Shown one piece after another: positions 6,056-33,783 of a stretch of DNA of 41,461 nt. Position 1 is the first letter of the stretch. Every line of letters begins with the position of its first letter. Both the position numbers and the translations under genes were made by a program. The DNA is from a virus: IMG/VR virus record IMGVR_UViG_3300044655_000769, positions 1 to 41,461 of that record. The stretch is one strand, 5' to 3'. The notes under the pieces were generated by a model. It ran no database searches. It saw only the letters and a list, made by a program, of their open reading frames with translations, and was not told the DNA's origin.

Positions 6056-6092
6056 TTACCATTTACCAGAATCTTGGTAGTGGTAATTAAAA
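6050..6092. terminator. Long hairpin across convergent stop codons, probable bidirectional 3'-end structure
   Basis: Bases 6050-6060 (TTTTAATTACC) are perfectly complementary to 6082-6092 (GGTAATTAAAA). The stem continues inward through A6061-T6081, T6062-G6080 and T6063-A6079. With T6064 bulged it then adds ACCA 6065-6068 against TGGT 6075-6078, closing on a short loop. No U-run follows the stem on either side; the A/T runs are inside its base. It is therefore not a textbook intrinsic terminator, but its position at the meeting point of two operons suggests transcript-end formation or stabilisation. Confidence 0.6.
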
Positions 6093-8098
6093 CTGAAATC
6101 TGTGTCTTTTAATTCTTCAATTAGTTTTAAATGCACGTCATACTTTGCTGTAGTCCAATCACTTTCACCATTACTCCCTGGCACTGCTAATGTTCTAGCA
6201 CGTTTAGCCGACATAGAAGTTTCTCTAGAATAATCCTGATATTTCCAAGCATCGGTATCTTGTTTAAAATTAAATTTAAAATCGGCCAACCATTCTCCTG
6301 AGGCTGTTATTTTAAAATTGTAAATGGCTGTTAAATTACACCCTAGTCTAGTTCCAAACTCGTTATTAATATCGTCTGGAGTAATTGCTACGTCAATTTC
6401 GTATCCTCCACGTGCTCTCCATAGCAATCGTAACAAAGGCCATATTTCATTTACTACGCTATCGGCCAACGGATTAATATTAGGGTTAATTATATTAAAA
6501 TCAAAATTTTCATATTCTATAGAGTTTAATACCCTATTCTTGTGAAATTTAATTTTGTGATATTTGTCTGTGCTAAAATTAGCAAAATTACCGCCTGTTA
6601 GTTTATTAACCAATCCAGCTTTTGGAGTATGTTCTAAAAAGATATTAAATGTAACTAATCTTATTGCTCGATGAACTTTTGAATTTCTAAAATCATGTGT
6701 GATCCAATTATTCATATAATAGGCTTTTATCATTCCGTATTTTTCAGAGTTTTGAGATAAAATTGTATCGGGCGGCTCTGTGAATCCGTGTCCACACGCA
6801 ATTACTTCTATGTAAGAACGATTACGCCATATTAGATTCAAAGACTCGTAAAAGTGTTGCATCTCTTCTGTAGGAAATCCTATGATCCAATTAGTATGAG
6901 CTTCTACTCCGACCAATGACCCGTGATACAGGTTTTGTTCTATTTCATCAACAGTAACACGTTTATCCATGTCTTTAAGAACTTTGTTAGACCCAGATTC
7001 TATTCCGTAACTCAACATCTTACATCCAGATCCTGCAAGGTCTTGATAATATTTAAAGTCCATCTTTTCATTACAACGAGCATATCCAGTCCAATTAATT
7101 TTAATTCCGCTGGCAATGACTCCTTTACAAAATGCTCTTAATTCATTTATGTTACCATTCACTAGGCTGTCAAGGAACCAAACAAAATCTATTCCGTAGT
7201 TGTTGTACAAATGAACAATTTCATTTAAGGTGTTTTTAGCCGATCGTCCTCTGTATTTCCAAAAATGTGTTTCACTGCAAAACACACACTTGGCAGTACA
7301 TCCTCTACTAAATTCAGCGTTAACTCCGTTGGGCATTTGATATTCTGACAACTCAAAATGACTGTAATCTGCCCAAGGTAATCGATCTAGATCTAATCTC
7401 TGTCCTTCTTGTTGTGCTATAGTTACCTGTAAAGACGATGCGTTATCTGTCTCTATTTCATCTAAAACTTTAAGCAGCATTTCTTCGCCTTCTCCAGATA
7501 CAACATAATCATAATACGGTTTATCTGGTCCAGGAGGAAATGCGTGGCACTGCGGGCCGCCTACCATAATTTTAACATGCGGATATCTTCGTTTAATTTC
7601 AGATGCCATCCAATCCGTTGGTTCTTGATTGCAGTAATATAAACTGAATCCAACAATATCCACCCTGTCTGTTTCAATTTGTTTTATATATTTTTCCATC
7701 AATGGCTGCATATATTTGTGCAGGTGCTGATGATATGACTCTCCCATCCATCTCCACTCTTTGCTGCCGTGCCAAGGATTAAAGTCGATATCCCAATTAG
7801 ATTTATCTTTGTATGCTTTGATGTTTAAATCAACTCCGTCAGCACTGTATCCTGCTTCTTTGGCAACCGATATCAATCTTGCTAGATTGTAAGGTGGAAA
7901 ATTAATGGCCCATTCAGGCAATAAGAAAAATCTTACTTTAGATTTTCTAGTAACATTATTAATAACTACTTCTGTGAGATTTTTCTGAGGTGTAGATCTA
8001 GCATAAGGAAGTATAGCTTCCATTATTTTTAAATGTTTATCATCTAAATCTACAGGTTTGTGTAGTGTTGCTTTGACTATTGGAATATTTTTTTTCAT
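6056..8098 (-). CDS. B12-binding-domain-type radical SAM protein (680 aa)
   Basis: Residues about 55-215 look like the Rossmann B12-binding domain of BchE-type radical SAM enzymes: PPYNLARLISVAKEAGY, DIVGFSLYYCNQEPTDW, VKIMVGGPQCHAFPPG and VVSGEGEEMLLKVLDEI. The radical SAM core follows with C267-x3-C271-x2-C274 (SRGCTAKCVFCSE), then YGIESGSNKVLKDMDKR and NWIIGFPTEEM. I see no DxHxxG cobalamin-ligand motif, so cobalamin, if bound, may be bound without the classical lower His. The last about 200 residues are a family-specific region. Related enzymes methylate unactivated carbons or phosphinates, or act on lipids; the substrate here is unknown. It is the last gene of the late operon, starting at an ATG overlapping the upstream TAA. 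Confidence 0.88.
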   Translation of the reverse strand: MKKNIPIVKATLHKPVDLDDKHLKIMEAILPYARSTPQKNLTEVVINNVTRKSKVRFFLLPEWAINFPPYNLARLISVAKEAGYSADGVDLNIKAYKDKSNWDIDFNPWHGSKEWRWMGESYHQHLHKYMQPLMEKYIKQIETDRVDIVGFSLYYCNQEPTDWMASEIKRRYPHVKIMVGGPQCHAFPPGPDKPYYDYVVSGEGEEMLLKVLDEIETDNASSLQVTIAQQEGQRLDLDRLPWADYSHFELSEYQMPNGVNAEFSRGCTAKCVFCSETHFWKYRGRSAKNTLNEIVHLYNNYGIDFVWFLDSLVNGNINELRAFCKGVIASGIKINWTGYARCNEKMDFKYYQDLAGSGCKMLSYGIESGSNKVLKDMDKRVTVDEIEQNLYHGSLVGVEAHTNWIIGFPTEEMQHFYESLNLIWRNRSYIEVIACGHGFTEPPDTILSQNSEKYGMIKAYYMNNWITHDFRNSKVHRAIRLVTFNIFLEHTPKAGLVNKLTGGNFANFSTDKYHKIKFHKNRVLNSIEYENFDFNIINPNINPLADSVVNEIWPLLRLLWRARGGYEIDVAITPDDINNEFGTRLGCNLTAIYNFKITASGEWLADFKFNFKQDTDAWKYQDYSRETSMSAKRARTLAVPGSNGESDWTTAKYDVHLKLIEELKDTDFSFNYHYQDSGKW

Positions 8099-8769
8099 TA
8101 AAATTTTGCAATTAATATATCACTAGAAAGTTCAAAATCAAAAAATCTAATATCTGGACTTATTTTATCAGTTTTTCGAATCCTAGCACATTTACTGTAT
8201 AAGGTTAATTCTACATCTTTTGTTCTTGCAAATTTTGTAAAAGCATTATAAACCATAGGAGAATTAATATCGTCGCCAAATATGCAGCCGCCGTCTAATA
8301 ATCGATCCCATGCATAGTTTAAATCTGCAGTAACCTCATCTTCACTGTGTCCAGCATCAATAAACACCACTGAAAGATCTTTAAGATCTAAAGATTTACT
8401 ATCTCCTGTATGAGGTATAATATTTGGAAAATCTTCAATATGCATTTTTTGAATTTCTAATAAATCTAAGGATGTTAGTAGAGGTAGATTATGTGAACTC
8501 CTCATTGATTCTAACATATGGTTATTTTCTTCGAATTTATTTAAATCAATTGTATGTATAATCACGTGTTGATTATCTTTCGCTAATAAACAAGTAGATC
8601 CTCCAACAAACGTACCCATTTCTAAAATCAAAGATCCTTGCGGCAATTTAGAAATTTCTAAATTAATCCAATTAATAATCCACCCATAAGTACAACTAAA
8701 TGGTTTTTCTAAGAAACATTGTTTTAATTCTTCACGTATGTTGTTGTATGTAAAATTTATTTTATTCAT
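8098..8769 (-). CDS. Class I SAM-dependent methyltransferase (223 aa)
   Basis: Motif I is seen as LILEMGTFVGGSTCLLA (47-63). The acidic end of strand beta2 is TIDLNKFEE (D75), and a DAGHSEDEVTADL block at about 138-150 is typical of the Methyltransf_24 type found in sugar, natural-product and cephalosporin-hydroxylase-like methyltransferases. Length fits a single-domain enzyme. It starts in an ATGA overlap with the GT9-like gene and its stop overlaps the radical SAM start, so the three are probably made together. Methylation of a sugar or peptide product of the neighbouring enzymes is a reasonable inference; the acceptor is unknown. Base composition is very AT-rich. Confidence 0.88.
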   Translation of the reverse strand: MNKINFTYNNIREELKQCFLEKPFSCTYGWIINWINLEISKLPQGSLILEMGTFVGGSTCLLAKDNQHVIIHTIDLNKFEENNHMLESMRSSHNLPLLTSLDLLEIQKMHIEDFPNIIPHTGDSKSLDLKDLSVVFIDAGHSEDEVTADLNYAWDRLLDGGCIFGDDINSPMVYNAFTKFARTKDVELTLYSKCARIRKTDKISPDIRFFDFELSSDILIAKF

Positions 8770-9542
8770 TTAGATGATAGAAATTTTTTTTCTTCGTTAG
8801 ACACTGAATGGCCAATTAGTCTTTTTGTTATTAATTGTTTGTTATTTACTAACTCATTGTTAGTTATTCCGCTGTGTAAGTCATTAATACATTTATCTAG
8901 ATCTTCCTTGGTCCAAGATAGTATTCGATCAAATGAATCTAAGAAAAAAGTTTTTTTATCTAAGTGAAGCAATTTGGCGTCAAATGAAGTTTTCCAAGGA
9001 AACATTATGTAAGGTACATCTAGCATATGACACAAATGAGCAATACCACCTTCGTATCCAATAACACATTCACAATAATTTGATATTAGATTAACTTTTT
9101 CTTCTACAGAAACATCTTTACTATCTAATGTAATTACTTCCCAACCAAATAATTTTAAAAGTTTGTATAATTCTGAATATTTTTGTATAGGATAGTATTT
9201 TGATTCAGGGTATACTAGTCCTGGATTTTCAAATGCTTGACTATCTTGATAAGCGGCAATACCGATAAATCTTTTGTTTTGTTTATTATTTGATAGTTTG
9301 TAATAGGGACTATAGATTTTAAAAATATCGCTAGGTTCTATTTCATTTTGTAAATCAGTTGTTTGATGTATTCGTAATATATCGTCTGAGATATTAAAAA
9401 TTTTTTTATATTTTTCAAAATTGGTGTTATTTAAACTTTTATTAATATTAAGCTGTGAAACTTTATAGTCTAGTAAGGTACATAAGACTATTAACTCTGT
9501 TCCCAACCCTTTACGCCAATTTCGATCTAATGTAAATTCCAT
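8766..9542 (-). CDS. GT9-like (ADP-heptose-type) glycosyltransferase-related protein (258 aa)
   Basis: The clearest sign is the C-terminal half: NYCECVIGYEGGIAHLCHML followed by DVPYIMFPW. This matches the GT-B nucleotide-sugar block of the heptosyltransferase family, where a D/E-x-G-x-x-H-L-A pattern precedes (G/D)-V-P. Residues about 92-101 (RFIGIAAYQD) look like the start of the C-terminal Rossmann domain. Full-length GT9 enzymes are about 330-360 residues, so the N-terminal acceptor domain is short or reduced. Role: sugar transfer, or a sugar-binding relative, within the island. Strongly AT-rich (11 G/C in the 60 bases at 9361-9420). Confidence 0.65.
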   Translation of the reverse strand: MEFTLDRNWRKGLGTELIVLCTLLDYKVSQLNINKSLNNTNFEKYKKIFNISDDILRIHQTTDLQNEIEPSDIFKIYSPYYKLSNNKQNKRFIGIAAYQDSQAFENPGLVYPESKYYPIQKYSELYKLLKLFGWEVITLDSKDVSVEEKVNLISNYCECVIGYEGGIAHLCHMLDVPYIMFPWKTSFDAKLLHLDKKTFFLDSFDRILSWTKEDLDKCINDLHSGITNNELVNNKQLITKRLIGHSVSNEEKKFLSSK

Positions 9543-9543
9543 T

Positions 9544-10269
9544 TTAAATAGCCTGCATTTTTTTTAATTCATTTTCCAACCATACAGCTATTTTTTTGTG
9601 GCCTTCGATATTGGGATGAGAATTTTGAGTGAATAAATGTTTGTATTCAACTGGGGGCTTCCACTTGCTGTGATCAGAAATCCTTGGAACACCGTTGCCC
9701 CAATTGTCAGTTAATATATCGAGTAGGGTGTTTCCCGGCGTGGCAAGCCCAATATAGTTGTTGAAATTAAATTTTTTTATATCTTCTTCTGATGCATCTT
9801 GTAATGGGTCATGAAACAAATTAAATTTAACTATATTAAGATTATACATTTTTTCTAGTTTTTCTAATACAGAAAATGTATAGAATGTGTCAATTGTGCA
9901 AATCCTAGTGTCAGGGTGGTCGTGTAATAATGATCGATTTATTAATCCCGGTCCACGAGTTTTTCTTAAAAATTCAGGAGCTAGATGAGGTATCATAAAT
10001 CTATCACGCAGAGGTGTAGTAATGCCAAACAATATTAGATCATCAGAAGACATGTTAGTGCAATCTAACCATAACTGATCTAATTGAACAAAATTACTAC
10101 ACCCACTAATTGCTCGATTTGTTAAAGTTACATTAAGTTTTTTTGCTAGTACTGATGCAAAACTAACATTATATCTATTATATTCCATGTTTTCTAGTAT
10201 AGCGTCGATCCGATCAGGAATATCCTGATCACCTGCTACAAAACTATCACCGTATGCCCATAGTTTCAT
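9544..10269 (-). CDS. SGNH/GDSL-type hydrolase (241 aa)
   Basis: Start placed at 10269, where ATGA overlaps the stop of the upstream radical SAM gene; an ORF from 10287 would add six residues. Block I is WAYGDSFVAG (nucleophile S9), block II SGCSN, and the C-terminal NSHPNIEGHKKIA gives the catalytic-type His (H218). SGNH enzymes are esterases that add or remove acyl groups, often O-acetyl on polysaccharides. No signal peptide is present, so it acts in the cytoplasm unless virion-bound. With glycosyltransferases nearby, sugar (de)acylation is the natural guess. A distant paralogue lies at 13865-14614. Confidence 0.82.
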   Translation of the reverse strand: MKLWAYGDSFVAGDQDIPDRIDAILENMEYNRYNVSFASVLAKKLNVTLTNRAISGCSNFVQLDQLWLDCTNMSSDDLILFGITTPLRDRFMIPHLAPEFLRKTRGPGLINRSLLHDHPDTRICTIDTFYTFSVLEKLEKMYNLNIVKFNLFHDPLQDASEEDIKKFNFNNYIGLATPGNTLLDILTDNWGNGVPRISDHSKWKPPVEYKHLFTQNSHPNIEGHKKIAVWLENELKKMQAI

Positions 10270-11399
10270 TTGTTTAATAACTCCCATTCAGTAGGCCACA
10301 ATTTTTCAAATTTTAAAGTTTCATTTTTTAAATAGGTAGTTTCTAATGAATATATTTCTTCTACAAAACTTTTATTTGTTGATTTTGTTTTTAATGTGAG
10401 ATTTTTCTTAAAAGTCAATAACCACTCTAATCCGGGAGCATCTGGAAATAATTTTTCACATTGAGTGATTTCGTCGATTGCACGTTGCTTTAATTCAGGA
10501 GATAATTTAAGAACACTAGCTGTAGAATTTTCTCCCGACGACTCTAATAAATTCCAAAATACATTTTTAATTTTATTTTCCTGTATAAACTCATAAAATT
10601 CAACAAGATTAAATGCAGAATATATCGAATATAAACTATGTGCATCTATATTATTGGATGTTTTTTCTTGTATGTAATTTATATTTTTTGCAAATAGATC
10701 CCAAGATGCTCCTCGTCTTACATACTCGTATCTGTTGCCAACTGTTTCAAAACTAACTCCCCATTTTGTAGTTCGTTCATTTATTAATGTTTGTGCAATT
10801 GAGTTAGATTCTAATGGTATTGCTAGATTGGATAAGATGTAAAAACTTCTATCATCTGTTATAGTATTAACTAATCGTAGATTTTGTTTTTGTAATAACG
10901 GTTCGCCGCCTAACATTAAGATATTTTCTATAGAGTCTATGTTTTTTTCAATCATGAGAAATAAACTATTTTCGTTTTCATCTTTGATTGTATTAATTTT
11001 TAAACCCTTCAACGTTGCCCACTTAGAACTAAAATATTCATAACAATAAGTACAAGATAAATTACAAGTGTTACTCCAGCGTAGATCTAATCTTCTCAAT
11101 TTAAAAAAAGAATTATCAACAGGTCCGTAGTCAGTTTGAAATCTTTCCAAATCACTGTCTCTTTCTGATCTAGCATTTTGAGATTCTTGTTGTTTACATT
11201 GTCTGCAAGACTCATGCCATTTACCATCAAGAATATGCTGTCGAATATCGGTTGCAACCTTTCCGTTGATTAGTTCGTCAATTGTGTTTGTATGTAACGA
11301 TCCTATAGAATTAGATGCCGAACAACAAGTCTTGACGTGGCCATCCGGTCCTAAGAAAATCTCAGTGAACGGCAAAGAACAAAATGTTTCTTTGTTCAT
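10266..11399 (-). CDS. Radical SAM protein with N-terminal twitch-type cluster domain (377 aa)
   Basis: The core has C112-x3-C116-x2-C119 (NTCNLSCTYCYE) and GGEP at 164-167. An unusual feature is a Cys-rich domain ahead of the core: C7 in CSLPF, C25/C26 in VKTCCSASN and C65/C68 in ESCRQCKQQE, read as an auxiliary Fe-S (twitch/SPASM-like) domain at the N-terminus. This order is known for an N-twitch family of unassigned radical SAM proteins. Such auxiliary domains usually bind a peptide or small-molecule substrate. The region is AT-rich. Start ATG is four bases inside the upstream gene's end. Function unknown. Confidence 0.87.
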   Translation of the reverse strand: MNKETFCSLPFTEIFLGPDGHVKTCCSASNSIGSLHTNTIDELINGKVATDIRQHILDGKWHESCRQCKQQESQNARSERDSDLERFQTDYGPVDNSFFKLRRLDLRWSNTCNLSCTYCYEYFSSKWATLKGLKINTIKDENENSLFLMIEKNIDSIENILMLGGEPLLQKQNLRLVNTITDDRSFYILSNLAIPLESNSIAQTLINERTTKWGVSFETVGNRYEYVRRGASWDLFAKNINYIQEKTSNNIDAHSLYSIYSAFNLVEFYEFIQENKIKNVFWNLLESSGENSTASVLKLSPELKQRAIDEITQCEKLFPDAPGLEWLLTFKKNLTLKTKSTNKSFVEEIYSLETTYLKNETLKFEKLWPTEWELLNK

Positions 11400-12658
11400 T
11401 TAGATACCTTTATTTCCCGCCAATTTCTAGATTTGTCGTCCATCTTTTCGTGTGTATAAATTCTATCTACTCGACTAAAGGTTCCGCATATGTTAGCACA
11501 ATATGCCATTTTGCCTTCGGCACAGCTAGACTTGGTCCATGAGTCCGTAAACACCCGATCCAGGTGATGACCTTCCATGATTTCTTGAAGGCTATGTTTG
11601 TTAAGGTCGAAGTGATCCCAGCCGTACTTTTCAATCTCGTAATGCAGTTGCAGGCTTTGGCTATCTGAATGTACGCCGTTTAAGTGTGTGCCCATGTAAC
11701 AACAAGGGATAACACGACCCTTTTGATCAACAAATATTTCTCTACCACCATTTCTAGTTTCGGCTTTACACTTGATGCTAGCACTATCTAATATAGAATT
11801 ATCTTCTGAACGTAGCATGTCATATACGTTGGCAACACGTTCAGGATGATTGTTGTGTGTTAGTTTATTTTCTTTAAGACGTTTGTAATCATCTATACTA
11901 AATTTCCAAAATTGATCTTGTACTTGTCCTTGAGGATTTTCCAAATTTCTATTCTTTGGGTCTACAGGAGCATCGATCCAATAATCAAATTCACCCTCGC
12001 GAGTCATTGCACTCATGCGTACTAAACTTGTACCGTTATCAACGCCCAATGCTTTCTTAGGAACAAATGCATGAAATCCCATGTCTTTAGAAAGTTGTTT
12101 AGCTTCGTCGATTTGATGTTCGTTATGTTTAAAAATCAAGTAGTCCCATTCTGCACGACCACCTGCATCTATGAATGCTTTTGCATTTGCTATGAGCTTA
12201 TCCCACTCTACGTTTCTTCTGTACAAGTGGTTTGTGTCTGCTAGTCCGTCGATACTAAATGTAATTTGCCATGACCAGTGATCTCTTAGTTTCTTTGAAA
12301 ACAAAGTTCCCATCTTAGCCCAGAATTCTGGTTTACGCATTCCACCGTTCGTATTCATACGAATGACAGTTGTTGGACTTACTTGATCTATGTATTCGCA
12401 AATCTCGTATAGATCTTTTGCCATGCCGGGGTCACCGTGAACACCGCAAAACAAAATTACTTCACACTTGTTAACAACTTCTGGTGGAAAATATTGTTTA
12501 AATTTTTCAATAGTAATTTGATCTATTTCTAAATCTGGACGAGTAAGTGGACTGTTAACATGAAATCGAGTACACATTGGACACGCAGCATTACACGCAT
12601 TAGACAGCTCGATGTGTAATTGATCTAGTTGATCAAAATTAAAAAAGTTATTATTCAT
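11396..12658 (-). CDS. Radical SAM/SPASM protein (420 aa)
   Basis: The core begins close to the N-terminus with C22-x3-C26-x2-C29 (SNACNAACPMCTR). In place of GGEP there is CGVHGDPGMAKDL (71-83), and a TFSIDGLADTNHLYRR stretch (133-148) follows as in SPASM enzymes. A classical C-terminal SPASM domain is visible with C297, C319/C320 (GRVIPCCYMG), C379, C387 and C391 (SCAEGKMAYCANICG). SPASM enzymes modify ribosomal peptides or act as sugar and protein maturases (for example thioether-forming or dehydrogenating enzymes). It is less AT-rich than the 8.1-11.4 kb genes (25 G/C in the 60 bases at 11581-11640), hinting at a different origin. Confidence 0.9.
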   Translation of the reverse strand: MNNNFFNFDQLDQLHIELSNACNAACPMCTRFHVNSPLTRPDLEIDQITIEKFKQYFPPEVVNKCEVILFCGVHGDPGMAKDLYEICEYIDQVSPTTVIRMNTNGGMRKPEFWAKMGTLFSKKLRDHWSWQITFSIDGLADTNHLYRRNVEWDKLIANAKAFIDAGGRAEWDYLIFKHNEHQIDEAKQLSKDMGFHAFVPKKALGVDNGTSLVRMSAMTREGEFDYWIDAPVDPKNRNLENPQGQVQDQFWKFSIDDYKRLKENKLTHNNHPERVANVYDMLRSEDNSILDSASIKCKAETRNGGREIFVDQKGRVIPCCYMGTHLNGVHSDSQSLQLHYEIEKYGWDHFDLNKHSLQEIMEGHHLDRVFTDSWTKSSCAEGKMAYCANICGTFSRVDRIYTHEKMDDKSRNWREIKVSK

Positions 12659-13868
12659 AGTTTATTGTCTTTGCATATTCTGGATATACTGTTGCAAAAT
12701 TTTGTCCTCGATATTCATCGTGTGCTTTTACATGTCGATTAAACTTTTCCCAATTTTCTGATTTAGCAGTGCCGTTAATAATAAAATTAATAATTCCTGG
12801 AATATGATACTCATACATATACCCATCAACATCTTCTTTAGGAATTGACTTGAGTATATCAACAACATAGGATTTTACGTCCGTTGGCAGTTGAGTTAAG
12901 TTATATTGTATTGGTCCGTGTACTAAATTAAGATAGGGTCCAAATTCTTTAAAATTTGTATTGTGTTCTTTTAATATTGCTGGCAATCCTGTAATGTTTA
13001 TTGTACTCAAAGTAATACACCAACCTAGATAGATGTTACCTGTTCTATTACTAAGTTCTACTGCCTTTTTCATATTTTCTTTTACTTCGCTCCATTTAGC
13101 AGGATAACGCATGTATTCGAATTGTTCTCCTATACCGTCGACACTGAATGATAAATGTACGTGTCTAAAATGTTTGAATATTTCAACTTTTTCAGCAGGC
13201 CACTGTGTGCCGTTGGTAGCATAGTGTACTTCGATATCTTTAGCATATCCTTTTTCAACAGCAACTTCTAAGATACGCCACATTTTTTTACTCATGAAAG
13301 GCTCACCGCCATAGAAGTCGAACTGTTTAATCGTTGCTAAGTTATTTTCTAGATCATCCCAAAACGGACTTTCGTCATCGTAGTGCTGATGATACTTTTT
13401 CATACTTTGAGCAAATAATTTATATGTAGAATATCTCTGGTTTTCATAAACATCGTAGTCCTCTTCCATCCAAGTACTACTAGAATGACTTCCGCAGGTT
13501 CTGCATTTTAAATTGCAGGTATTGCCCAAGTTTAATTCAACTTTGGCAAGACCTTTAAAGGGTGCATTTCCTTTACGTAACCAGTCAACGTATTTGTCGT
13601 TATCGCGCTGACGCTTACTTTTACGACCAGCGTCTTCTTCTTCGAAACACCAACTGCACTTATCGTGTCTCTTTCCGGAACCCAATGTATCTCTCACTTC
13701 CTGAAATGCTTTCTGATTAAAATTAATTGCAATAGGTTCAGCACCTAATGAATGTTTTAGATCTTGATCTCGATACATGCAACAAATTTTTGTTGTACCA
13801 GTATTATTTCCACTCATTGCGTGGTCAGCGTTTACACACCAGGTAGTTTTATTTTGTTCGTTTATCAT
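12651..13868 (-). CDS. Radical SAM protein with N-terminal twitch-type domain (405 aa)
   Basis: The N-terminal cluster domain has C11 (TTWCVNAD), C29/C30 (TKICCMYRD) and C71/C74 (HDKCSWCFEEED). The core has C118-x3-C122-x2-C125 (GNTCNLKCRTCGSHSSSTW) and GGEP at 187-190. LSFSVDGIGEQFEYMRYPAK matches the substrate-side strand shared with its relatives. The architecture is the same as at 10266, 14604 and 15941, but the sequence is clearly diverged. It overlaps the SPASM gene by eight bases and the SGNH gene by four, so translation is likely coupled. A peptide-modifying role is inferred only from the auxiliary domain. Confidence 0.88.
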   Translation of the reverse strand: MINEQNKTTWCVNADHAMSGNNTGTTKICCMYRDQDLKHSLGAEPIAINFNQKAFQEVRDTLGSGKRHDKCSWCFEEEDAGRKSKRQRDNDKYVDWLRKGNAPFKGLAKVELNLGNTCNLKCRTCGSHSSSTWMEEDYDVYENQRYSTYKLFAQSMKKYHQHYDDESPFWDDLENNLATIKQFDFYGGEPFMSKKMWRILEVAVEKGYAKDIEVHYATNGTQWPAEKVEIFKHFRHVHLSFSVDGIGEQFEYMRYPAKWSEVKENMKKAVELSNRTGNIYLGWCITLSTINITGLPAILKEHNTNFKEFGPYLNLVHGPIQYNLTQLPTDVKSYVVDILKSIPKEDVDGYMYEYHIPGIINFIINGTAKSENWEKFNRHVKAHDEYRGQNFATVYPEYAKTINYE

Positions 13869-15959: not shown

Positions 15960-17374
15960 TTTGCCTCGCATTCTTTCCAGAAAGTTTCTAACTCTGGAAA
16001 TGTATTTAAAAAATTTGTGTCTTGACGCTTGTCTTGCTGGCTAAAAAATAAATAAAAATTCTCTTTAGCTAATTCACTGTTAAATCCAGTGTCTGATTTA
16101 ATCCAATCGATCAATCTCTGTACTTTGCTAATTTCAAAGTCGCTAAATCCTTTAAACTCGTTCCATTTGGTTTCTGGATTATATTTCATAAACTCAATTG
16201 TGCGTTCTAACTCAGAAACTAAATCAGGTAATAATTTAGGATTCAAAAAATCGGGATCAATTAACTGAGGCACATCAAACCAAACCAACTGACGACCACT
16301 GTTAAATTGTTTGCGTAATTTTAATATATTTTCCATGTATTCGTAAAATCGTGTGTACGACAACGCATTAAAAGTGATAATAAATGTCAAACTATGTTTA
16401 TCGCTGTTTTGGAGATAATCAGTTACATTGGTGTATAGCATGTCAAAGTTCATGCCGTTACGTATATATTCAGCCTGTTTGCCCCACGAGTCTAAACTGC
16501 AAAACAACATAAAGTGGTCAATTGCATTTTTTTCAGTGATTTTCTTCAATGATATCATGAACTTATTCCACTGATTTCCAGGCGGGCAGCAATTTGACGT
16601 TATAGACAGGTTTAAGGCAGGATGTGGGTGCTCGTATACATAATCAAACATTTTAAAAGTATTTTTATCCATCAACGGTTCGCCACCAGTCATACGGAAC
16701 GTTTGTAGCTTTGGATAAACTACAGGCATCCATTTCCAAAAGGCTTTTAGATAAGGATTGTCAGGACCGTTGTCGATATTGAGTTTTTTTACCCATGTAA
16801 TGTCATTGTGCCAGCGATCAGATAAAGTGATAGCACCGCTTTGTTCTATATCCTGTTGCCATGCTGTGCTTAGGTGCGGACTACAATAGCTGCATTTAAA
16901 ATTGCAGGCCTGATTGAAGTTTACTTCAACATATCGAGGTATTGCATCACCTTCAAATCCCAATGCCTTGGCTTCCTCAATTAGTCCGTCTTCGTAAACG
17001 TCCTTACTGCGATATGCGCGATCGCTGAGTTGATTGCCACTGTCTTCGATTTGCCAACAAAATTCACATTCTTTAGGACGAGTCCCTTCTAGCATTAATT
17101 TACGTTGTTCTTTTTTATACTTGGTATTATGCAACGCACTTACATCGATCACTATTTCATCTAATGGAATTTGATGTGCTCTAGGATGATAACAACTATG
17201 AGTCTTTCCTGTGGGAATATGTATACTAACGTTATACCATTTGGCAAGACAGAAACTAGGACTAACCTTGTTTAGTTCTTTATACACATATTCAGCGTCG
17301 GCAAGATAACGAGATTCATATCTACCATTAATCTCTTTAAGTTCATTGCCTTTTATATTACGATTATATTCCAC
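15941..17374 (-). CDS. Radical SAM protein with N-terminal twitch-type domain, tandem paralogue B (477 aa)
   Basis: The frame is open to 17563, but that extension runs through the end of the 767-residue gene. I chose GTG at 17374, which has AGGA eight bases upstream and overlaps the preceding stop by 11 bases. Auxiliary Cys: C42 (SFCLAKW), C61 (HSCYHPRAH), C103 and C106 (KECEFCWQIED). Core: C157-x3-C161-x2-C164 (QACNFKCSYCSPHLSTAW), with a TGGEPLMDKNTF stretch. Closely parallel to the gene downstream, with the same auxiliary spacing and C-terminal FYLFFSQQDKR. Perhaps the two act as a heterodimer or on successive sites of one substrate. Confidence 0.87.
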   Translation of the reverse strand: MEYNRNIKGNELKEINGRYESRYLADAEYVYKELNKVSPSFCLAKWYNVSIHIPTGKTHSCYHPRAHQIPLDEIVIDVSALHNTKYKKEQRKLMLEGTRPKECEFCWQIEDSGNQLSDRAYRSKDVYEDGLIEEAKALGFEGDAIPRYVEVNFNQACNFKCSYCSPHLSTAWQQDIEQSGAITLSDRWHNDITWVKKLNIDNGPDNPYLKAFWKWMPVVYPKLQTFRMTGGEPLMDKNTFKMFDYVYEHPHPALNLSITSNCCPPGNQWNKFMISLKKITEKNAIDHFMLFCSLDSWGKQAEYIRNGMNFDMLYTNVTDYLQNSDKHSLTFIITFNALSYTRFYEYMENILKLRKQFNSGRQLVWFDVPQLIDPDFLNPKLLPDLVSELERTIEFMKYNPETKWNEFKGFSDFEISKVQRLIDWIKSDTGFNSELAKENFYLFFSQQDKRQDTNFLNTFPELETFWKECEAKCKKTE

Positions 17375-19667
17375 TAAACTGTTCCTGTAACCATTCAAAG
17401 TCATTGATTTTATTAAGAGCGTCTGGATTATTTTTATTAGTTTCGCCGTAATGTCTACCCGCCTGTGCCCCGGCAATTGCATATGCCCCAAACGGTTGTT
17501 CAACACCAGCTGAACACCATATGTCCAATCGTAGTTTAGTTTCTTCTTCGTACTGCCTTTCAATAATACGACTAGCTAGTTTACAACATTCTCTAAAGGC
17601 CGATCTCCATGTTGCAAACTCATCAGTATTGAAAGAGTTAATATTAGACACAGTATTCATGGCTTTAAACTTGTCAGATATACTTGTTGTCATATCCGAA
17701 GTATTAACATTCATATTCAATGTTAGGTGTCTTGGTAATAATTTAACACCACCGTTACCGTATTCTAAATTGTTAATAGGATTTTTACTTTGCCACACAT
17801 GAACACAATCTATATCATAGCTTGACATCACTGTATCAAAACTAAAACTGTCTTCAATTATTGCATCGCCATCGACTATCCATATCATATCAGTATCACA
17901 TATACTTGCTGCTTTAATATGTGCATTGTGAATTCCTTTCACGCCACGCACTCGTTTGGCCCTAGGACACATATCTATTAATTTTTTATAGTTCTCGTCA
18001 GCGTTGGGCTCGTTATAAGAAATAAAAACAACATCATATAAACGATGTTTAGATACTAGTCGATCATGTTCTTTTTTCTCAATTAAAAATCTATGTTTAA
18101 ATTCTCGTTGTCCTATAATTTTATCTTTAGACAATAATACTAGTCCGTTGGTATGAATTTCTTTACCGTTAAACAGATGCTTAAATGTATGATTTTCTTT
18201 TCTATCATGATCATATTTTCCATCATTAGGATCAAAATATAGATCAAATACAGATTCATCTACAATATCTATCTCAGGCCATATCCCCCAAAACATCGGC
18301 TGTGTTTCATTTTTTAAAATGTCTGTGTAGTTGTCGTATGACGAAAGAACATATCTATTATATCTATACCGACTAACAACAGTTGTATGTTCTTTTTTGT
18401 CTATTAAATATCTACGGTTAAATTCTTTTTGCGAAATAACTTTTTCTTTTGAGAATAAAACTAGCCCGCACAAATATGTTTCTTTGTCATTGCATAGATT
18501 TTTAAACACGTGATTTTCTTTTCTATCATGATCATACTTTCCATCGTTGGGATCAAAATATAAATCAAAAATTGTTTCATCTATAATGTTTATTTCGGGC
18601 CATATACCCCAGAATAAAGGTTGAGTTTCTGTTTCTATAATTTGTTTATATTCTTCGTAACTGGAAATATTGTATCGATTATATCTATACCTACTAACTA
18701 TGCGGGTATGTTCTTTTTTGTCAATTAAATATTTTCTATCAAATTCTTTCTTAGAAATAATTTTAGATTTAGAAAATAAAACAACTCCGCTTAGATATGA
18801 TTCTTTATCATTGCATAAATTTTTAAATACATGATTTTCTTGCCTATCATAATCTAATGCACCATTGTTAGGATCAAGATAAAAATCAAATATTGTATCG
18901 TCAATAATTTCTATACTAGGCCACTGACACCAAAACATTTGTTGTTTTTCATTGTCAATAATCTCTAAATAATCAGCATAAGAATTAATTTTATAAACTG
19001 GGTATTGATATTTGCTGACAACTTTGTTGTGCTCTTTTTTATCTACAGCATACTGTTTATCAAACTCTCGATTTGATAAAGGTTTATATTTGCTGCAAAG
19101 GATTACTCCGCTGAGATAAGATTCAACACTATTGCAGAGATTTTTAAATACATGATTTTCTCTGCGGTCATAACTATTATGATGACTAAAATATATGTCA
19201 AAAATTGATTTGTCAGTTACAGTAACTTCTGGCCATACTAGCCAAAACATGTCGTCGGTTATGTGTTGGTATTCGTTGAATGTATTAGGACTGTATGTTT
19301 TATATTGTTTTGGAATACTAGCAACAATATCAATTTCTTTTTTAGCTGTAAAAAATCTATGATGAAATTCACGCTGAGAAATCGTCAACGATTTAGGAAA
19401 CAAACAAATACCATCATAGTGTTCTCCGTTTTTAAAAACGTGAACATACATGTCATCCCACTTAGTGGCTTTATAATCTAATAAATTAAATTCTGTAAGA
19501 TTTATATCGTCCCAGATAACCCAGAACATTTTTGTAAAGGATTTAGATTGAATTTCTTCGTAAGATTTTATGTTTGTTAATTTTTGAGCAAGTGGATACC
19601 TAGACTTTATTGTTGACCAGTCTTTGTCATTTCCGTTGCTTGCTGAAACATAAAAAATATCATACAT
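17364..19667 (-). CDS. Multi-module GT-A-like protein: tandem degenerate modules plus one DxD-bearing glycosyltransferase-like domain (767 aa)
   Basis: Five related modules occupy about residues 1-108, 109-209, 210-316, 317-423 and 424-530. The last three repeat at exactly 107 residues. Each has a TQPMFWGIWPEI-type strand, an FDLYFDPNDGKYDHDRKENH stretch, VFKNLCN and LVLFSK, ending KEF-x-x-x-(Y/F)-L-I-x-KKEH. From about 543 follows YDVVFISYNEPNAD, AKRVRGVKGIHNAH and WIVDGDA (DxD at 599-601), then EYGNGGVKLLPRH. This matches the paralogue at 19660. The repeats align with this domain but carry WPE/WDD where DxD belongs, so they look like non-catalytic copies. Likely a glycosyltransferase with an array of binding modules; donor and acceptor unknown. 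Confidence 0.75.
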   Translation of the reverse strand: MYDIFYVSASNGNDKDWSTIKSRYPLAQKLTNIKSYEEIQSKSFTKMFWVIWDDINLTEFNLLDYKATKWDDMYVHVFKNGEHYDGICLFPKSLTISQREFHHRFFTAKKEIDIVASIPKQYKTYSPNTFNEYQHITDDMFWLVWPEVTVTDKSIFDIYFSHHNSYDRRENHVFKNLCNSVESYLSGVILCSKYKPLSNREFDKQYAVDKKEHNKVVSKYQYPVYKINSYADYLEIIDNEKQQMFWCQWPSIEIIDDTIFDFYLDPNNGALDYDRQENHVFKNLCNDKESYLSGVVLFSKSKIISKKEFDRKYLIDKKEHTRIVSRYRYNRYNISSYEEYKQIIETETQPLFWGIWPEINIIDETIFDLYFDPNDGKYDHDRKENHVFKNLCNDKETYLCGLVLFSKEKVISQKEFNRRYLIDKKEHTTVVSRYRYNRYVLSSYDNYTDILKNETQPMFWGIWPEIDIVDESVFDLYFDPNDGKYDHDRKENHTFKHLFNGKEIHTNGLVLLSKDKIIGQREFKHRFLIEKKEHDRLVSKHRLYDVVFISYNEPNADENYKKLIDMCPRAKRVRGVKGIHNAHIKAASICDTDMIWIVDGDAIIEDSFSFDTVMSSYDIDCVHVWQSKNPINNLEYGNGGVKLLPRHLTLNMNVNTSDMTTSISDKFKAMNTVSNINSFNTDEFATWRSAFRECCKLASRIIERQYEEETKLRLDIWCSAGVEQPFGAYAIAGAQAGRHYGETNKNNPDALNKINDFEWLQEQFSGI
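18191..19160. repeat. 321-bp tandem coding repeat (four in-register copies)
   Basis: The string GATTTTC (coding GAAAAT-C, residues EN-H) recurs at 18191, 18512, 18833 and 19154, exactly 321 bases apart each time, with flanking bases also conserved. Copies at 18191 and 18512 are nearly identical over about 60 bases, so they duplicated recently. A more diverged fifth copy lies 288 bases further at about 19442. The repeat is in frame and preserves the 107-residue protein module. Confidence 0.85.
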
Positions 19668-20577
19668 TCGTAGGCACCGGCATCTTAAAATAAGTGTCGT
19701 TGAGATTCATGGTTTCATTATACAAATCTAAAGTAAATTTGCTCTGCTGTGCATCAAGAAAAGGCCAATCTAATCCCAGACTCATTTTTATTTTATCGCC
19801 TAAATTTTTAATCTCATCTATTAATCCGTCACCGTTTACTTCTTGATAAGGTTTTCCATATTGATTCCATATATCTCTGAGTATTTCAAAATCTCGAACA
19901 TCAACATAATTCCATTCAGTGCAGTTGGCCATCCATGTTCCTAGTCTAGCACCATAGACTGCATAGATTCCATTTTCTTCGTGAGCACCCACAGTTGACC
20001 ACATGCGCAGTCTGTGAATATTATGCCACCATATGCGTTCTTTAATTTCCATCGGAGGAACTTTAACGCCGTCAAGCAAGGTCATTTTAACACCTTCTCG
20101 AAATCCTGCTCTCCATGCTTGAAATGATGATCCTGTAATAACACTTTCACTGAACGTTAATGGAAAATTTCTATATCCATCTTCCCAACAAAAATCTACT
20201 TGGCCGCGATCACTGTTGGAATTTTCATGTGTCTTCATGTTCAAGACAAAATCCTTACGCCAGATTTTTAATCCACCATTGCCATATCGAAGACCGTTAA
20301 TTGCATTACGACCACACCAACCATAGACCTGTATCTTGGGATCACTCATGTCAAGGTCGATGTTAAAAAATCTAGGATCTACAATGTTGTCAGCATCAAC
20401 TGTGATAAACCAATCTGTTTCACTGGCTTCTGCTGCGGCTTTATGGGCATGGTCAGATCCTTTGACTCCGTGAATGCGTTTAGCCCACGGAACTTTGTTA
20501 CACAAATCAGCATAATGCAGATCTGCATTAGGCTCATCGTAACTTAAAAAAACTACATCAAACTCGATTACTTTCAT
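19660..20577 (-). CDS. GT-A-like glycosyltransferase-related protein (305 aa)
   Basis: Begins FDVVFLSYDEPNADLHYADL, then AKRIHGVKGSDHAHKAA and a WFITVDADNIVDP block with DAD at 61-63, the metal/nucleotide-sugar signature of GT-A folds. RYGNGGLKIWRKDF (about 106-119) matches the acceptor-side strand. It is the single-domain paralogue of the C-terminal part of the 767-residue protein, whose ATG lies eight bases inside its end. Its own ATG overlaps the upstream stop (ATGA). Sugar transfer onto a virion protein or cell-surface glycan is inferred from context. Confidence 0.8.
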   Translation of the reverse strand: MKVIEFDVVFLSYDEPNADLHYADLCNKVPWAKRIHGVKGSDHAHKAAAEASETDWFITVDADNIVDPRFFNIDLDMSDPKIQVYGWCGRNAINGLRYGNGGLKIWRKDFVLNMKTHENSNSDRGQVDFCWEDGYRNFPLTFSESVITGSSFQAWRAGFREGVKMTLLDGVKVPPMEIKERIWWHNIHRLRMWSTVGAHEENGIYAVYGARLGTWMANCTEWNYVDVRDFEILRDIWNQYGKPYQEVNGDGLIDEIKNLGDKIKMSLGLDWPFLDAQQSKFTLDLYNETMNLNDTYFKMPVPTNV

Positions 20578-21191
20578 TTATATTCGATCACATAATTCTT
20601 AAATAGGCGTCTTGTATACACACTGAATCTATCATATTCAATGTTTTTAATTGTTACATTATGCCCAACTAGTTCATTTAGTTTAACAGAAAACATCTGA
20701 AAAATCAAGTTGGGATCGTTGTAATCGGTGATTAAAAAATCCATATCGGTAGAACCATCCCAAATAAATTGTCTTGTTCCGATGCTGCCTTTGTGTTTTT
20801 TAGTTCCACCGTATTCTGTAGACAGTTGAATTTTCAAATATTTGCTTTTCGAACTGTATGTTAGATGTATGTCCGATTTAAATTCTTCCAAATATTTGAT
20901 GTCAGGAATTCTATGCAATACATCATCTAATTTGTTTAGTGTCTTTTTTTCAGCTATCTCTAACTGTCCTGACTCTACATTTATTTGACAGTTGTGTATC
21001 TGTGTTTCAGCTGTGATTATAGATTCAGCAATTTCTTGTGATATCTGCACTGTATGTTTTTGATCTGCAAAAGCATGATCTGGTCCTACGCTGATAACTC
21101 GACCCGTATTTGGATCAAACACCGCTACATATTGTATAATCGGTGGCTTGTATTCTTTCAGCCATTTATCAAAATCTTCTATAGTTTCCAT
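20574..21191 (-). CDS. Hypothetical protein (205 aa)
   Basis: Start placed at the ATG at 21191 with GGAGA seven bases upstream; an in-frame ATG at 21218 lies inside the previous gene. The N-terminus carries a DKWLKEYKPPIIQYVAVFDP segment and GRVISVGPDHAFADQKH. The middle is helical (IAESIITAETQIHN, then LEIAEKKTLNKLDDVL). The C-terminal half is strand-rich, with GSIGTRQFIWDGSTDMDF and an Arg/Tyr-rich end. The alternation resembles small virion accessory proteins, but I recognise no family. It sits between two glycosyltransferase types and is translationally coupled to both. Confidence 0.65.
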   Translation of the reverse strand: METIEDFDKWLKEYKPPIIQYVAVFDPNTGRVISVGPDHAFADQKHTVQISQEIAESIITAETQIHNCQINVESGQLEIAEKKTLNKLDDVLHRIPDIKYLEEFKSDIHLTYSSKSKYLKIQLSTEYGGTKKHKGSIGTRQFIWDGSTDMDFLITDYNDPNLIFQMFSVKLNELVGHNVTIKNIEYDRFSVYTRRLFKNYVIEYK

Positions 21192-22018
21192 GCTTTGGTC
21201 TCCAAGATATGTATGCACTCATCTGTGATTAAATTTTTCTCTACGTAATGCACAATATCATTCTGTTGAAAATTTCCTATCTTTAGTCTAGCATCTGCAT
21301 TGAGATAAAATCCCACATGATCGCTCCAAGTGTCAGCCGGCCACGGCCAATTTTGCAGCATTGGTTTCATATGCACTACTCGAGGAAATGGTAAATCGTA
21401 TGCGACGTCATCAGTTATATCTAGTATTTTAGCAGCCAGTGCGAATGCTTCATCTGTGCCAACGACCTTGGGTCTATGTTCATTTAGAAACTGATTAGTG
21501 AATTCATTGGGATTTTTTATAATCTGTCGGCCTAAATCAAAAAATTCTTGGCATAGCACAGATCCTTTAGAGAAAAAAGTCCACATAGAGTATAAATCTG
21601 GCAGGCAGTTTCTGTCAAAGGTTTTTCTATATGTGCGATCTGTGATTGTTTCGCCCCTATAGGTATAGACTTGGTTGGCCACATATAATTCACTGTTAGC
21701 AATAAAATAATCAATCCAATGACTGTAATCTCGTAGGAATAACATGTCAGCGTCAAGGCATACTGTGTGATCAAACGGAGACAGTTGATCCATCCACGAT
21801 CTACCATCCCAATATTTCTCTTGGTCCCATTCTATCACTGTGTCAAACACCCACGGACTTGATAATTTTTCAAGCGATTTTTTGTTGTCAATTACCAATG
21901 CCACCTTGTCATACCCTGGTTTTTGTGTGGTTTTTATACTCAGAGCTAGAGCATAGGCGCACTTGAGATAATCAATGTCATCATTGTGTGCTACAAATAA
22001 CAGATACCCAAAGTTCAT
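21179..22018 (-). CDS. GT8-like glycosyltransferase (279 aa)
   Basis: A GT-A-type pattern is seen: FGYLLFVAHNDDIDYLKCAY at the N-terminus, VALVIDN ending a strand, and HTVCLDADMLFLRDYSHW with DAD at 89-91. A later GTDEAFALAAK helix resembles the acceptor-side DE motif of GT8/GT-A glycosyltransferases, and VVHMKP supplies the C-terminal metal-ligand-type His. No signal peptide or membrane segment. It is a diverged paralogue of the next gene upstream (22015). It should transfer a sugar in the cytoplasm of the infected cell; donor and acceptor unknown. Confidence 0.78.
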   Translation of the reverse strand: MNFGYLLFVAHNDDIDYLKCAYALALSIKTTQKPGYDKVALVIDNKKSLEKLSSPWVFDTVIEWDQEKYWDGRSWMDQLSPFDHTVCLDADMLFLRDYSHWIDYFIANSELYVANQVYTYRGETITDRTYRKTFDRNCLPDLYSMWTFFSKGSVLCQEFFDLGRQIIKNPNEFTNQFLNEHRPKVVGTDEAFALAAKILDITDDVAYDLPFPRVVHMKPMLQNWPWPADTWSDHVGFYLNADARLKIGNFQQNDIVHYVEKNLITDECIHILETKAWKL

Positions 22019-22875
22019 ATCAACTCCATTAACTGTTGTTGATGTCTCAATATACTTTGTTTATTCATCACATGTATATCAACTCCAGTCACTGATGCTG
22101 CACAATATGTGGCATCCAATCGATGATCGATCAAGAATGTCAATTTGTCCTTGTCGACGGCTGTGAGTATGTCTTTGTCCATCACTGATAACACAGGCGG
22201 CAGCGTTGGTGTGTTCATGTTTTCAAATCCATCTAGCATATGCTTGGCAACACTAAACGCTATGTCATTTCTATATTGTCTATGATCAAATCGAAAGACA
22301 TCAGCATAGTGCTTGTAATTTTCTTTGATTAAATTCACCGTATCAAAAAACAGTTTGGACTGTGGATTTTTCGTGAACATCACTGTGGTTGCCCAATACA
22401 TTTTACAGCTGGTTTCACAGACGTATCTATCAAGGTATCCTAATCTATCTTCGCTATATATGTCGTTGATCGAATCTCCTATCATAACGTCAGCTTCTAC
22501 ATTCCAATATTTGTTTAGATTATCACTGAATATTAAAAAATCGCTGTCTATCAGCAGTGTTCTATCATAGGGTGTAAGGTCCCATACAGAATGTCTGTTG
22601 GTATTGCAAAACGGTATTTTTTTATTAATTACACCGTCGTGCAATCCACGTTGATTATCCGTAACAGGCTTATCAACAATTATAACATGTTCGAATACTG
22701 TTTCAACCTGCTGCCATGTGCGGGATTCGATCAACCATTCCTTGGTGCTAAGGTCTGTGACCAATGACACTGGAACATTAAGATGTTTTTTTGCAAGCCC
22801 GCCACTGATCACTGCTAATAATCCGTAATCTACTTCACGATTATTATGTGCGAAAATTAAAATGCCATTGGTCAT
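22015..22875 (-). CDS. GT8-like glycosyltransferase (286 aa)
   Basis: Paralogue of the downstream protein, with the same order of blocks: GILIFAHNNREVDYGLLAVI, VSLVTD, then YDRTLLIDSDFLIF with DSD at 110-112, a YRNDIAFSVAKHML helix and DIHVMNK with the C-terminal His. The DxD and late His fit a metal-dependent GT-A retaining-type fold. Start ATG overlaps the preceding stop by one base and the stop overlaps the next ATG. Two such enzymes in tandem suggest a disaccharide or branched product, or two different acceptor sites; neither is shown. Confidence 0.76.
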   Translation of the reverse strand: MTNGILIFAHNNREVDYGLLAVISGGLAKKHLNVPVSLVTDLSTKEWLIESRTWQQVETVFEHVIIVDKPVTDNQRGLHDGVINKKIPFCNTNRHSVWDLTPYDRTLLIDSDFLIFSDNLNKYWNVEADVMIGDSINDIYSEDRLGYLDRYVCETSCKMYWATTVMFTKNPQSKLFFDTVNLIKENYKHYADVFRFDHRQYRNDIAFSVAKHMLDGFENMNTPTLPPVLSVMDKDILTAVDKDKLTFLIDHRLDATYCAASVTGVDIHVMNKQSILRHQQQLMELI

Positions 22876-23222
22876 TATGCGATAAGTTTTTCTACAGATC
22901 TAGATTTCTTGATCTTGTCAAATTCTTGAAAGTATTCATTGGTGACTTCGAAATATCTGCTGAAGATTTCATCACGAAAAGCTTCTAGATTTTCTATCAA
23001 AATGGGATTTTCGTTGCTGTCCAACAGCACTGTTCCAGAAACTCTGCCTTTGCTACACAGCATTTCAACAAATGTCAACAGATTTCTATCAATGGCAAAC
23101 AGCCCGCCAGAGAAACCATACATCAGTTTGGCAGCTGTGCGTTCTTTGAGAATTTTTTTGTGGATTGAAAAAGTCTGCTGATAATTGGCGAAATCCAATA
23201 CAGCTTTCAACTGTTCGTTCAT
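22875..23222 (-). CDS. Small helical hypothetical protein, first gene of the modification operon (115 aa)
   Basis: The ATG has a strong AAGGAG site and lies 22 bases after the predicted late transcript start at about 23244. The protein is helical, with a Gly-rich break (KLMYGFSGGLFAIDRNLLTF) and a short strand pair (RVSGTVLLDSNENPILIENL). The C-terminus is charged (FDKIKKSRSVEKLI). No known motif. As the leading gene of the transcript it should be the most abundant product of the operon, which might suit a carrier, substrate or structural role. That is only inference. Confidence 0.65.
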   Translation of the reverse strand: MNEQLKAVLDFANYQQTFSIHKKILKERTAAKLMYGFSGGLFAIDRNLLTFVEMLCSKGRVSGTVLLDSNENPILIENLEAFRDEIFSRYFEVTNEYFQEFDKIKKSRSVEKLIA

Positions 23223-23249: not shown

Positions 23250-23257
23250 TATTTATA
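23250..23257 (-). promoter_or_regulatory. T4-type late promoter (exact TATAAATA on - strand)
   Basis: The + strand reads TATTTATA. Predicted initiation is near 23244, giving a 22-base leader for the gene starting at 23222, with AAGGAG within it. It is the only late octamer I found for the 17 kb, sixteen-gene block down to 6056. A perfect 7-bp inverted repeat (23235-23241 with 23246-23252, 4-base loop) overlaps the initiation region and might be an operator. Confidence 0.85.
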
Positions 23258-33775: not shown

Positions 33776-33783
33776 TATTTATT
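33776..33783 (-). promoter_or_regulatory. T4-type late promoter variant (AATAAATA on - strand)
   Basis: The + strand reads TATTTATT, one base from consensus. It overlaps the stop codon of the giant structural gene (TAA at 33779-33781). Predicted initiation at about 33770 gives a 20-base leader to the ATG at 33750, supporting that start for the 216-residue protein. Confidence 0.65.

Follow-up and report, generated by a model that had tools for sequence, protein, structure and literature searches.

The DNA considered here is IMG/VR virus record IMGVR_UViG_3300044655_000769, positions 1 to 41,461, and this whole stretch of 41,461 nucleotides is referred to as the window. The subject is an island of 16 minus-strand open reading frames (ORFs), named g1 to g16 in transcription order, which runs from 23222 to 6056 and brings together glycosyltransferase (GT), radical S-adenosylmethionine (rSAM), SGNH-like and methyltransferase genes behind a tail-fibre-like gene, FIB24. 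In the nearest relatives the block is a nearly invariant head followed by a mosaic tail. The island may best be explained, with a probability of about 0.45, as a module for tail-fibre glycosylation and glycan tailoring, in which soluble phage enzymes would act on the fibres.

The sixteen genes and the phage that carries them

A T4-late-type promoter motif, TATAAATA (23250..23257), stands 27 nt ahead of the start codon of g1, and upstream of it lies FIB24 (23282..24262), recognised as a tail-fibre-like neighbour of the module by family membership and by a distant homologue in PA5oct. Like these two features, all 16 ORFs are on the minus strand; adjacent ORFs overlap, with the sole exception of g13 and g14, which are separated by a 1-nt gap at 9543. 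The first module gene, g1 (22875..23222), encodes a conserved 115-residue protein of unknown function that in relatives is flanked by FIB24 and the GT8 pair, and it found no match in Pfam, PHROGs or NCBIfam at the limits used. Function is likewise unknown for g4 (20574..21191), which has a Met start at 21191 in an ORF open from a GTG at 21218. Its predicted model (pLDDT 79.5, pTM 0.57) has a C-terminal half of beta strands, and its structural matches, with a best PDB Z of 5.2 and, in the viral library, three hits under E 0.001 to viral proteins that are unnamed or uncharacterised, allow no function to be assigned.

Pfam and NCBIfam gave nothing useful for g1 to g6, among them g2, g3, g5 and g6, which are thereby without Pfam support as glycosyltransferases. 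For g2 (22015..22875) and g3 (21179..22018) the assignment comes from a profile alone, that of their relatives, which matches glycogenin (GT8) at 1.2e-5. For g5 (19660..20577) a PDB sequence search returned no useful match, ammonium transporter fragments only, and the evidence comes from a model built from 46 sequences (pLDDT 90.2, pTM 0.88). Foldseek against the PDB placed the PBCV-1 capsid glycosyltransferase first (E 6.3e-6, TM 0.29/0.39) and SunS, a glycosin-peptide S-glycosyltransferase, second (1e-4), with TM-scores of just 0.2-0.4, and VIA-align gave Z 11.3 to B4GALNT1 (140 residues, 3.0 A) and Z 10.1 to the PBCV-1 enzyme (142 residues, 3.3 A). In the model, residues ~1-150 of g5 are thus a predicted GT-A domain, and the DxD-type motif that accompanies this fold in g5 is present in 190 of 196 g5-family proteins; the corresponding count for a GT8-type motif is 201 of 220. 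Against the viral structure library the model found 24 matches under E 0.001, headed by two uncharacterised uncultured-phage proteins (3.2e-16 and 2.6e-15, 23-24% identity) and closed, at rank 24, by the glycosyltransferase of mycobacteriophage Che8 (9.6e-4). The long g6 (17364..19667) is assigned to the g5 family by hidden Markov model (HMM); its g5-like domain is fused behind several ~107-residue repeats of unknown kind, seen in the DNA as a tandem repeat at 18189-18937 with a 321-nt period and 2.3 copies, and its relative in contig G011 has 973 residues. Further along the block, g14 (8766..9542) is a possible GT9-like enzyme with a Glyco_transf_9 match in Pfam (0.0026) that lies under the cut-off.

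Six genes encode rSAM proteins, NCBIfam and Pfam together giving four of the N-twitch class, one of SPASM type and one of B12 type. The N-twitch proteins g7 (15941..17374), g8 (14604..15971), g10 (12651..13868) and g12 (10266..11399) score 303, 296, 299 and 210 bits against NF033640, above its curated cut-off of 170 bits, and carry the CX3CX2C motif; g12 also has an N-terminal SPASM match (Pfam, 1.3e-8). The listed start of g7 is a TTG at 17563. The alignment with relatives begins only near residue 64, where there is a GTG at 17374, and the listed start is therefore probably wrong; with the start revised to 17374, the g6/g7 overlap shrinks from 200 to about 11 nt. The CX3CX2C motif is also present in g11 (11396..12658), which matches the Pfam rSAM (25.5 bits) and C-terminal SPASM (20.7 bits) families slightly below their gathering scores and reaches 48 bits, below the cut-off, with NF033640. 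No match to NF033640 was given by g16 (6056..8098), which combines B12-binding (1.2e-10) and Radical_SAM (1e-12) domains, both over the Pfam gathering scores.

Among relatives the motif is intact in 219/219 N-twitch and 129/129 SPASM-group proteins, and at least four cysteines precede it in 218 of the 219 N-twitch proteins. In comparisons with contigs G006, G007 and G010, dN/dS of the island genes, wherever it is defined, is 0.03-0.20; the value for g11 against G010 is saturated. By these signs the module enzymes look intact.

The rSAM genes could also be taken to indicate maturation of protein in the manner of ribosomally synthesised and post-translationally modified peptides (RiPPs), with crosslinks, epimerised residues and methyls placed on fibre proteins and the GT mark a minor one. 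In NCBIfam g16 resembles RiPP and P-methyltransferase rSAM families, far below their cut-offs, and the N-twitch profile finds the peptide enzyme YydG in the PDB. The latter is one of a set of weak matches only, in which MoaA and a sugar enzyme, cytosylglucuronate decarboxylase, also occur, the sugar enzyme matching equally weakly, and the profile therefore does not separate peptide from sugar substrates. Such maturation is improbable: the block genes, with a largest gap of 1 nt, leave no space between them for a precursor peptide gene (other frames were not looked into), and no PqqD/RRE, peptidase or exporter/transporter family was matched among the 16 genes in Pfam and NCBIfam.

The two SGNH-like proteins are recognised by motif. 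A GDSF sequence stands near the N-terminus of g9 (13865..14614) and SHPNxxGH near the C-terminus of g13 (9544..10287), and both proteins have a GDS block near the N-terminus and a late histidine, which do not vary in a nine-row alignment. The curated GDSL cut-off is reached by neither protein: g13 has a Lipase_GDSL_2 match of 0.014 in Pfam, and g9 has no GDSL match there. Three of the nine aligned proteins match Lipase_GDSL_2 (best 0.0017), two further SGNH-like relatives found no match in Pfam, and a PDB search with the set returned one ribosomal protein, nothing useful. The pattern G[DCN]S[FYHW] is present in 71 of 98 SGNH-like relatives, and 11 of 12 genes without a match in the window, located inside rSAM arrays of five related contigs, look SGNH-like by their N-terminal motif, judged by eye. 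Of 99 SGNH-like genes, 54 have an rSAM neighbour (mean 24.5, maximum 37 in 500 permutations); strict pairing was not inferred from this, since both kinds share the same short island.

Phage glycosyltransferases often act on DNA, and rSAM and GT enzymes might together make and attach a hypermodified base or cofactor, as DNA modification or metabolic support. The window has a seventh rSAM gene, a QueE-like one (872-1726, plus strand; PHROG 2076, 2.4e-52; under the NCBIfam QueE cut-offs), which is a lead toward 7-deazaguanine chemistry, and for g15 (8098..8769), a SAM-dependent methyltransferase, the PHROG matches include one under the name DNA methyltransferase (4e-6). Against this, the QueE-like gene does not belong to the block and lies on the opposite strand, Pfam assigns g15 to a general methyltransferase fold (Methyltransf_24, 6.7e-12), and the block lies behind tail fibres, with which it has its promoter type in common in the late-promoter group described below. 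A role in DNA modification is thus very improbable, in line with an earlier note, made from the sequence alone, that had placed the enzyme set closer to glycan or protein maturation. That note had also described 16 genes from 6056 to 23222, overlapping save for one base, with six rSAM genes, a methyltransferase and two unknowns, all of which the ORFs and family searches confirm. Its five GT-like proteins stand for g2, g3 and g5 by profile or fold, with g6 HMM-assigned and g14 weakly matched, and its two SGNH proteins stand by motif and lack a curated GDSL match.

The window is contained entire, at 100%, in a contig of 98,644 bases, G004, of which eight of ten tested proteins match PHROGs, including DNA polymerase, an SbcC/SbcD-like nuclease pair and baseplate genes. 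In T4 the nuclease pair is gp46/47. A T4-type DNA polymerase, the gp46/47-like nuclease, an RNase H-like exonuclease and baseplate genes, found in G004 and the window, mark a T4-related myovirus, as had been proposed. The nearest polymerases among GenBank phages are those of Sinorhizobium phage Phosso (469 kb, 50%) and then Agrobacterium phage Atu_ph07 (47%). No tRNA genes were found. The protein cut by the window's end (33779-41461, minus strand) has 4,605 residues in G004, and parts of it match virion and baseplate families. Another contig, G002, has no mismatch to the window over 5949-19517 (13.6 kb) and then abruptly falls to mostly 87-95%, the switch lying within g6. This reflects either recent block exchange or a chimeric assembly, and since the latter would look alike, block transfer was not used as evidence.

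Fixed head, mosaic tail and promoters

Viral contigs were scanned with an rSAM profile (best 80 of at least 578 relatives) and a g5 profile (best 80 of at least 591), which with earlier loci gave 168 loci, or 131 once those with shared proteins had been reduced to a non-redundant set. These 131 loci hold 113 GT8 pairs. Where an upstream gene was called, the one directly before the pair is g1 in 98 of 99 cases; the second gene after the pair belongs to the g5 family in 111/113, and the g5-family run is followed by a same-strand N-twitch rSAM gene in 97/103 (44/46 for loci entered by the rSAM profile, 46/50 for those entered by the g5 profile). FIB24 is directly upstream of g1 in 89/90. Entry from the fibre only (best 80 of at least 519 relatives; 80 loci, 66 non-redundant) gave the same arrangement: g1 comes after the last FIB24 in 65/66, the remaining locus ending there, and where more than 6 kb lies beyond, the g1, GT8, g4 and g5 families are present in 44/44 loci and N-twitch rSAM genes in 42/44. 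Adjacency to tail-fibre genes is thus upheld from either entry, and GT genes are tied by synteny to a virion protein gene, as expected of virus-encoded virion glycosylation.

In loci with enough flank the head, fibre-g1-GT8-GT8-g4 (or an unnamed gene)-g5 family, is present in 55/57. The GT-A position of the head is filled by one enzyme or by two, and an N-twitch rSAM protein closes it. The tails of the same 57 loci have 46 orders, a count inflated by tails that end at contig ends or strand changes, and combine rSAM genes (0-7, median 4), SGNH-like genes (0-4), glycosyltransferases and methyl- or carbamoyltransferases in varying ways. A further gene family, GTB, recurs in tails (L131, L115 and other loci); its C-terminus is reminiscent of GT-B enzymes, and three members found no match in Pfam. 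With so many tail orders, one fixed pathway is rejected. The co-occurrence of the gene set as a unit, named as a check in the earlier note, therefore holds for the order of the head and fails for the exchangeable tail. That the glycosyltransferases are the most constant part also speaks against RiPP-like maturation.

The head is one tightly packed transcription unit starting at g1: the median gap before g1 is 58 nt, and before the other seven families tested it is -4 to -13 nt. Of the eight families, g1 is thus alone in usually having a gap before it, which bears out the operon-like unit described earlier. According to the accessible part of PMC2984593, the late promoter of T4 and KVP40 is TATAAATA and that of cyanophage S-PM2 is NATAAATA. 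The window has 3 motifs of the TATAAATA type against a chance mean of 5.2; the raw count was therefore rejected as promoter evidence, and only position and conservation carry weight. The spacing to g1 is 27 nt in G007 and G008, as in the window, and 25 nt in G012, and among 93 loci with 75 nt upstream of g1 (those with shorter upstreams being excluded) TAAATA stands 22-32 nt before g1 in 62 (1.2% in mononucleotide shuffles). A sigma-70 site with at most 2/12 mismatches precedes g1 in 18/93 (3.1% in shuffles), one of them with TAAATA too. Neither type is present in 14/93, of which 10 show, by eye, CTAAATA nearer the start.

Control ORFs with a gap of 40-300 nt (n=213) carry the late motif in 51 cases and a sigma-70 site in 42, so that neither is specific to g1. 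Of the 30 fibre genes in the late-promoter group that have a gap, 29 also carry the late motif; in the sigma-70 group it is found before 5/9 fibre genes, and a sigma-70 site before 3/9. Judged by its promoter, late expression of the block is probable in the window's phage, and a branch of relatives may lack it. The exact late promoter described earlier thus holds in position and conservation, and late timing holds for the window's clade and is not general: L088, L094, L154 and 14 others have near-consensus sigma-70 promoters, with a 17-nt spacer, in place of the late-type motif, and uniform late expression is rejected by these 17/93.

A distant FIB24-like gene (29-31% over 70% of the query) occurs in ten Pseudomonas phage records, two of which are PA5oct, where it carries an ESI-MS/MS note; the FIB24 family is probably a virion protein. 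Among GenBank phages, megablast of the block found no match, and tblastn of g1 and two g5 proteins found none in 50,697 records. This may be the reason that the module escaped notice. A bacterial scan gave at least 13 loci, of which 8 are titled as Bdellovibrio- or Bacteriovorax-type bacteria (28-43% identity). Two loci, in a Flavobacteriales bin (L064) and a Neomarinimicrobiota bin (L068), are probably phage DNA; both carry module parts, and L068 has fibre genes. Nine clustered rSAM genes of these families occur in a Bdellovibrionia bin (L065) and seven in another bacterium (L070).

Possible fibre decoration or surface change

In the favoured reading, that of a fibre glycosylation module, soluble glycosyltransferases of the GT8 and GT-A types would take nucleotide sugars of the host in the cytoplasm and build a short glycan on new fibre protein ahead of assembly, g1 and g4 perhaps acting as adaptor or chaperone. 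Next, the sugars or the site that bears them would be modified by the rSAM, SGNH and methyltransferase enzymes, through epimerisation, dehydration, C-methylation, acylation or deacylation. It is a more tentative proposal that the fixed GT core decorates the fibre while the exchangeable array of N-twitch rSAM and SGNH-like enzymes rewrites the glycan or the attachment residue. Swaps of tail genes would change the decoration while fibre and core glycosyltransferases stay, as in the diversification of surface-antigen loci, and the swapped decoration may adjust receptor binding or conceal the fibre. By a crude hydropathy test g1 to g16 have no transmembrane-like stretch (19-residue maximum 1.46), which fits a cytoplasmic acceptor. 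If this is true, uncultured T4-related phages share a widespread fibre-maturation system, new to description, and the fibre wears a radical-tailored, strain-specific coat that diversifies through cassette exchange.

Within the infected cell, the enzymes might instead act on sugar nucleotides or on lipid-linked precursors of O-antigen or capsule, with the result that phages, whether superinfecting or released, stop binding; selection would keep receptor-binding and receptor-changing genes together. Gtr-type modules for O-antigen conversion consist of a membrane flippase and membrane glycosyltransferases, and in g1 to g16 the crude hydropathy test revealed no membrane-like protein, hence no sign of a flippase, a lipid-linked glycosyltransferase or a membrane acyltransferase. 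Nor would host-surface change require a fixed place behind one fibre family, and late-type promoters precede the module in 62/93 loci. Sigma-70-type promoters (17/93 loci) suit action before release, and carbamoyltransferase-family genes occur in 7/61 rSAM-profile loci. A host-surface role is also what the authors of PMC7029224, in the part available, propose for glycosyltransferases of the pelagimyophage tail-fibre region. On balance this explanation is the main alternative to fibre glycosylation and less probable than it.

Several observations weigh against fibre glycosylation. What goes beyond gene content, order, packing, promoters, motifs and the GT-A fold is interpretation, and the counts of head and tail come from nearest relatives, which are no random sample, with family HMMs made from the same ORFs. 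Many GT-A and related nucleotidyltransferase folds tie as matches of g5, so that the fold alone gives no acceptor; 27/98 SGNH-like proteins are without the tested GxS motif pattern; and dN/dS against G002 rises to 0.28 (g4) and 0.38 (g6, with very few changes). The near-consensus sigma-70 promoters, where the late motif is absent, are possibly early, and an early promoter is not needed for virion modification. The FIB24-like gene of PA5oct is followed by opposite-strand genes with the module absent, and this type of fibre can therefore do without the module. The carbamoyltransferase gene of G013 and the NAD-epimerase gene of G014 fit surface polysaccharide equally. In bacteria, an N-twitch relative (L069, by Pfam) adjoins GT1 enzymes, a carbamoyltransferase and an ABC-2 exporter, as host-surface change would predict, and also PqqD, and at L073 the one neighbour protein tested in Pfam is YcaO, both of which suit RiPP-like maturation; these neighbourhoods fit surface-polysaccharide or peptide chemistry, and both alternatives are to be kept in view.

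Relation to known systems

The earlier note had seen no described phage pathway with this enzyme set. This stands for the ordered head and fails for its components: pelagimyophages have published rSAM cassettes and glycosyltransferases in their tail-fibre region (PMC7029224), and Campylobacter phage CP220 is described with 11 rSAM proteins and an interchangeable five-rSAM module (PMC2853527), in neither case with a function test in the available text. The accessible parts of other papers mention a marine T4-like genome with 12 rSAM genes (PMC5332604) and large aquatic phages with four core glycosyltransferase groups (PMC12619734); the fixed-head arrangement is not described in those of PMC12619734 or PMC10783043. 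In open full-text literature, as far as its texts were accessible and with subscription papers and preprints outside, no paper was found that describes the ordered fibre-g1-GT8-GT8-g4-GT-A head.

The pelagimyophage host recognition cluster, as presented in the available text, resembles the window in being T4-related and in having glycosyltransferases and rSAM cassettes in the tail-fibre region, and the cassettes, not the ordered head, are what that text names (PMC7029224). Pelagibacter phage Mosig shares with module loci a carbamoyltransferase and one SGNH-family match, but in the 24,495 bases examined it has no match to the FIB24, g1, GT8, g4, g5 or N-twitch families. CP220 and CPt10 likewise have clustered rSAM genes, called an interchangeable module, beside two genes like NDP-sugar transferases, according to the part of the CP220 report available. 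In 24.5 kb of CP220, by contrast with the module, there are five weak SPASM-group matches, no other module family and a possible amidinotransferase gene. In the isolated Vibrio phage K566, four matches of the SPASM group and one of the N-twitch group lie within 29 kb, but with ~23% identity to g8 and g10 and no FIB24, g1, GT8, g4, g5 or SGNH match.

For the proposed chemistry, the closest likenesses are to decorated virions. In chlorovirus PBCV-1, whose capsid glycosyltransferase is the best PDB fold match of g5, a virion protein is decorated in the cytoplasm by glycosyltransferases and a methyltransferase that the virus encodes (PMC7826918, in part); PBCV-1 differs in being a eukaryotic virus with a capsid target, not a fibre, and the accessible text names no rSAM enzymes. 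The weak structural similarity of g5 to the glycosyltransferase of Che8 points to mycobacteriophages in the same way. Che8 was reportedly studied in the 2023 Freeman work, and the mycobacteriophage targets are reportedly the capsid and tail tube; that virion glycosylation is not known to involve rSAM tailoring. Glycans on mycobacteriophage virion proteins are reported by Freeman 2023, as cited in the available part of PMC12619734.

Phage rSAM genes have long been reported as unexplained metabolic extras, and the tie of an rSAM family to one fibre gene and a fixed GT core makes the question of the fibre as substrate testable. If the fibre is the substrate, a phage virion glycan would be tailored by radical chemistry, the uncharacterised N-twitch family would gain a function, and part of the host-range and antigen variation in uncultured phages would be explained. 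So far as the published descriptions were accessible, the fixed-head module extends the GT and rSAM cassettes known from tail-fibre regions by an ordered head not found described among them.

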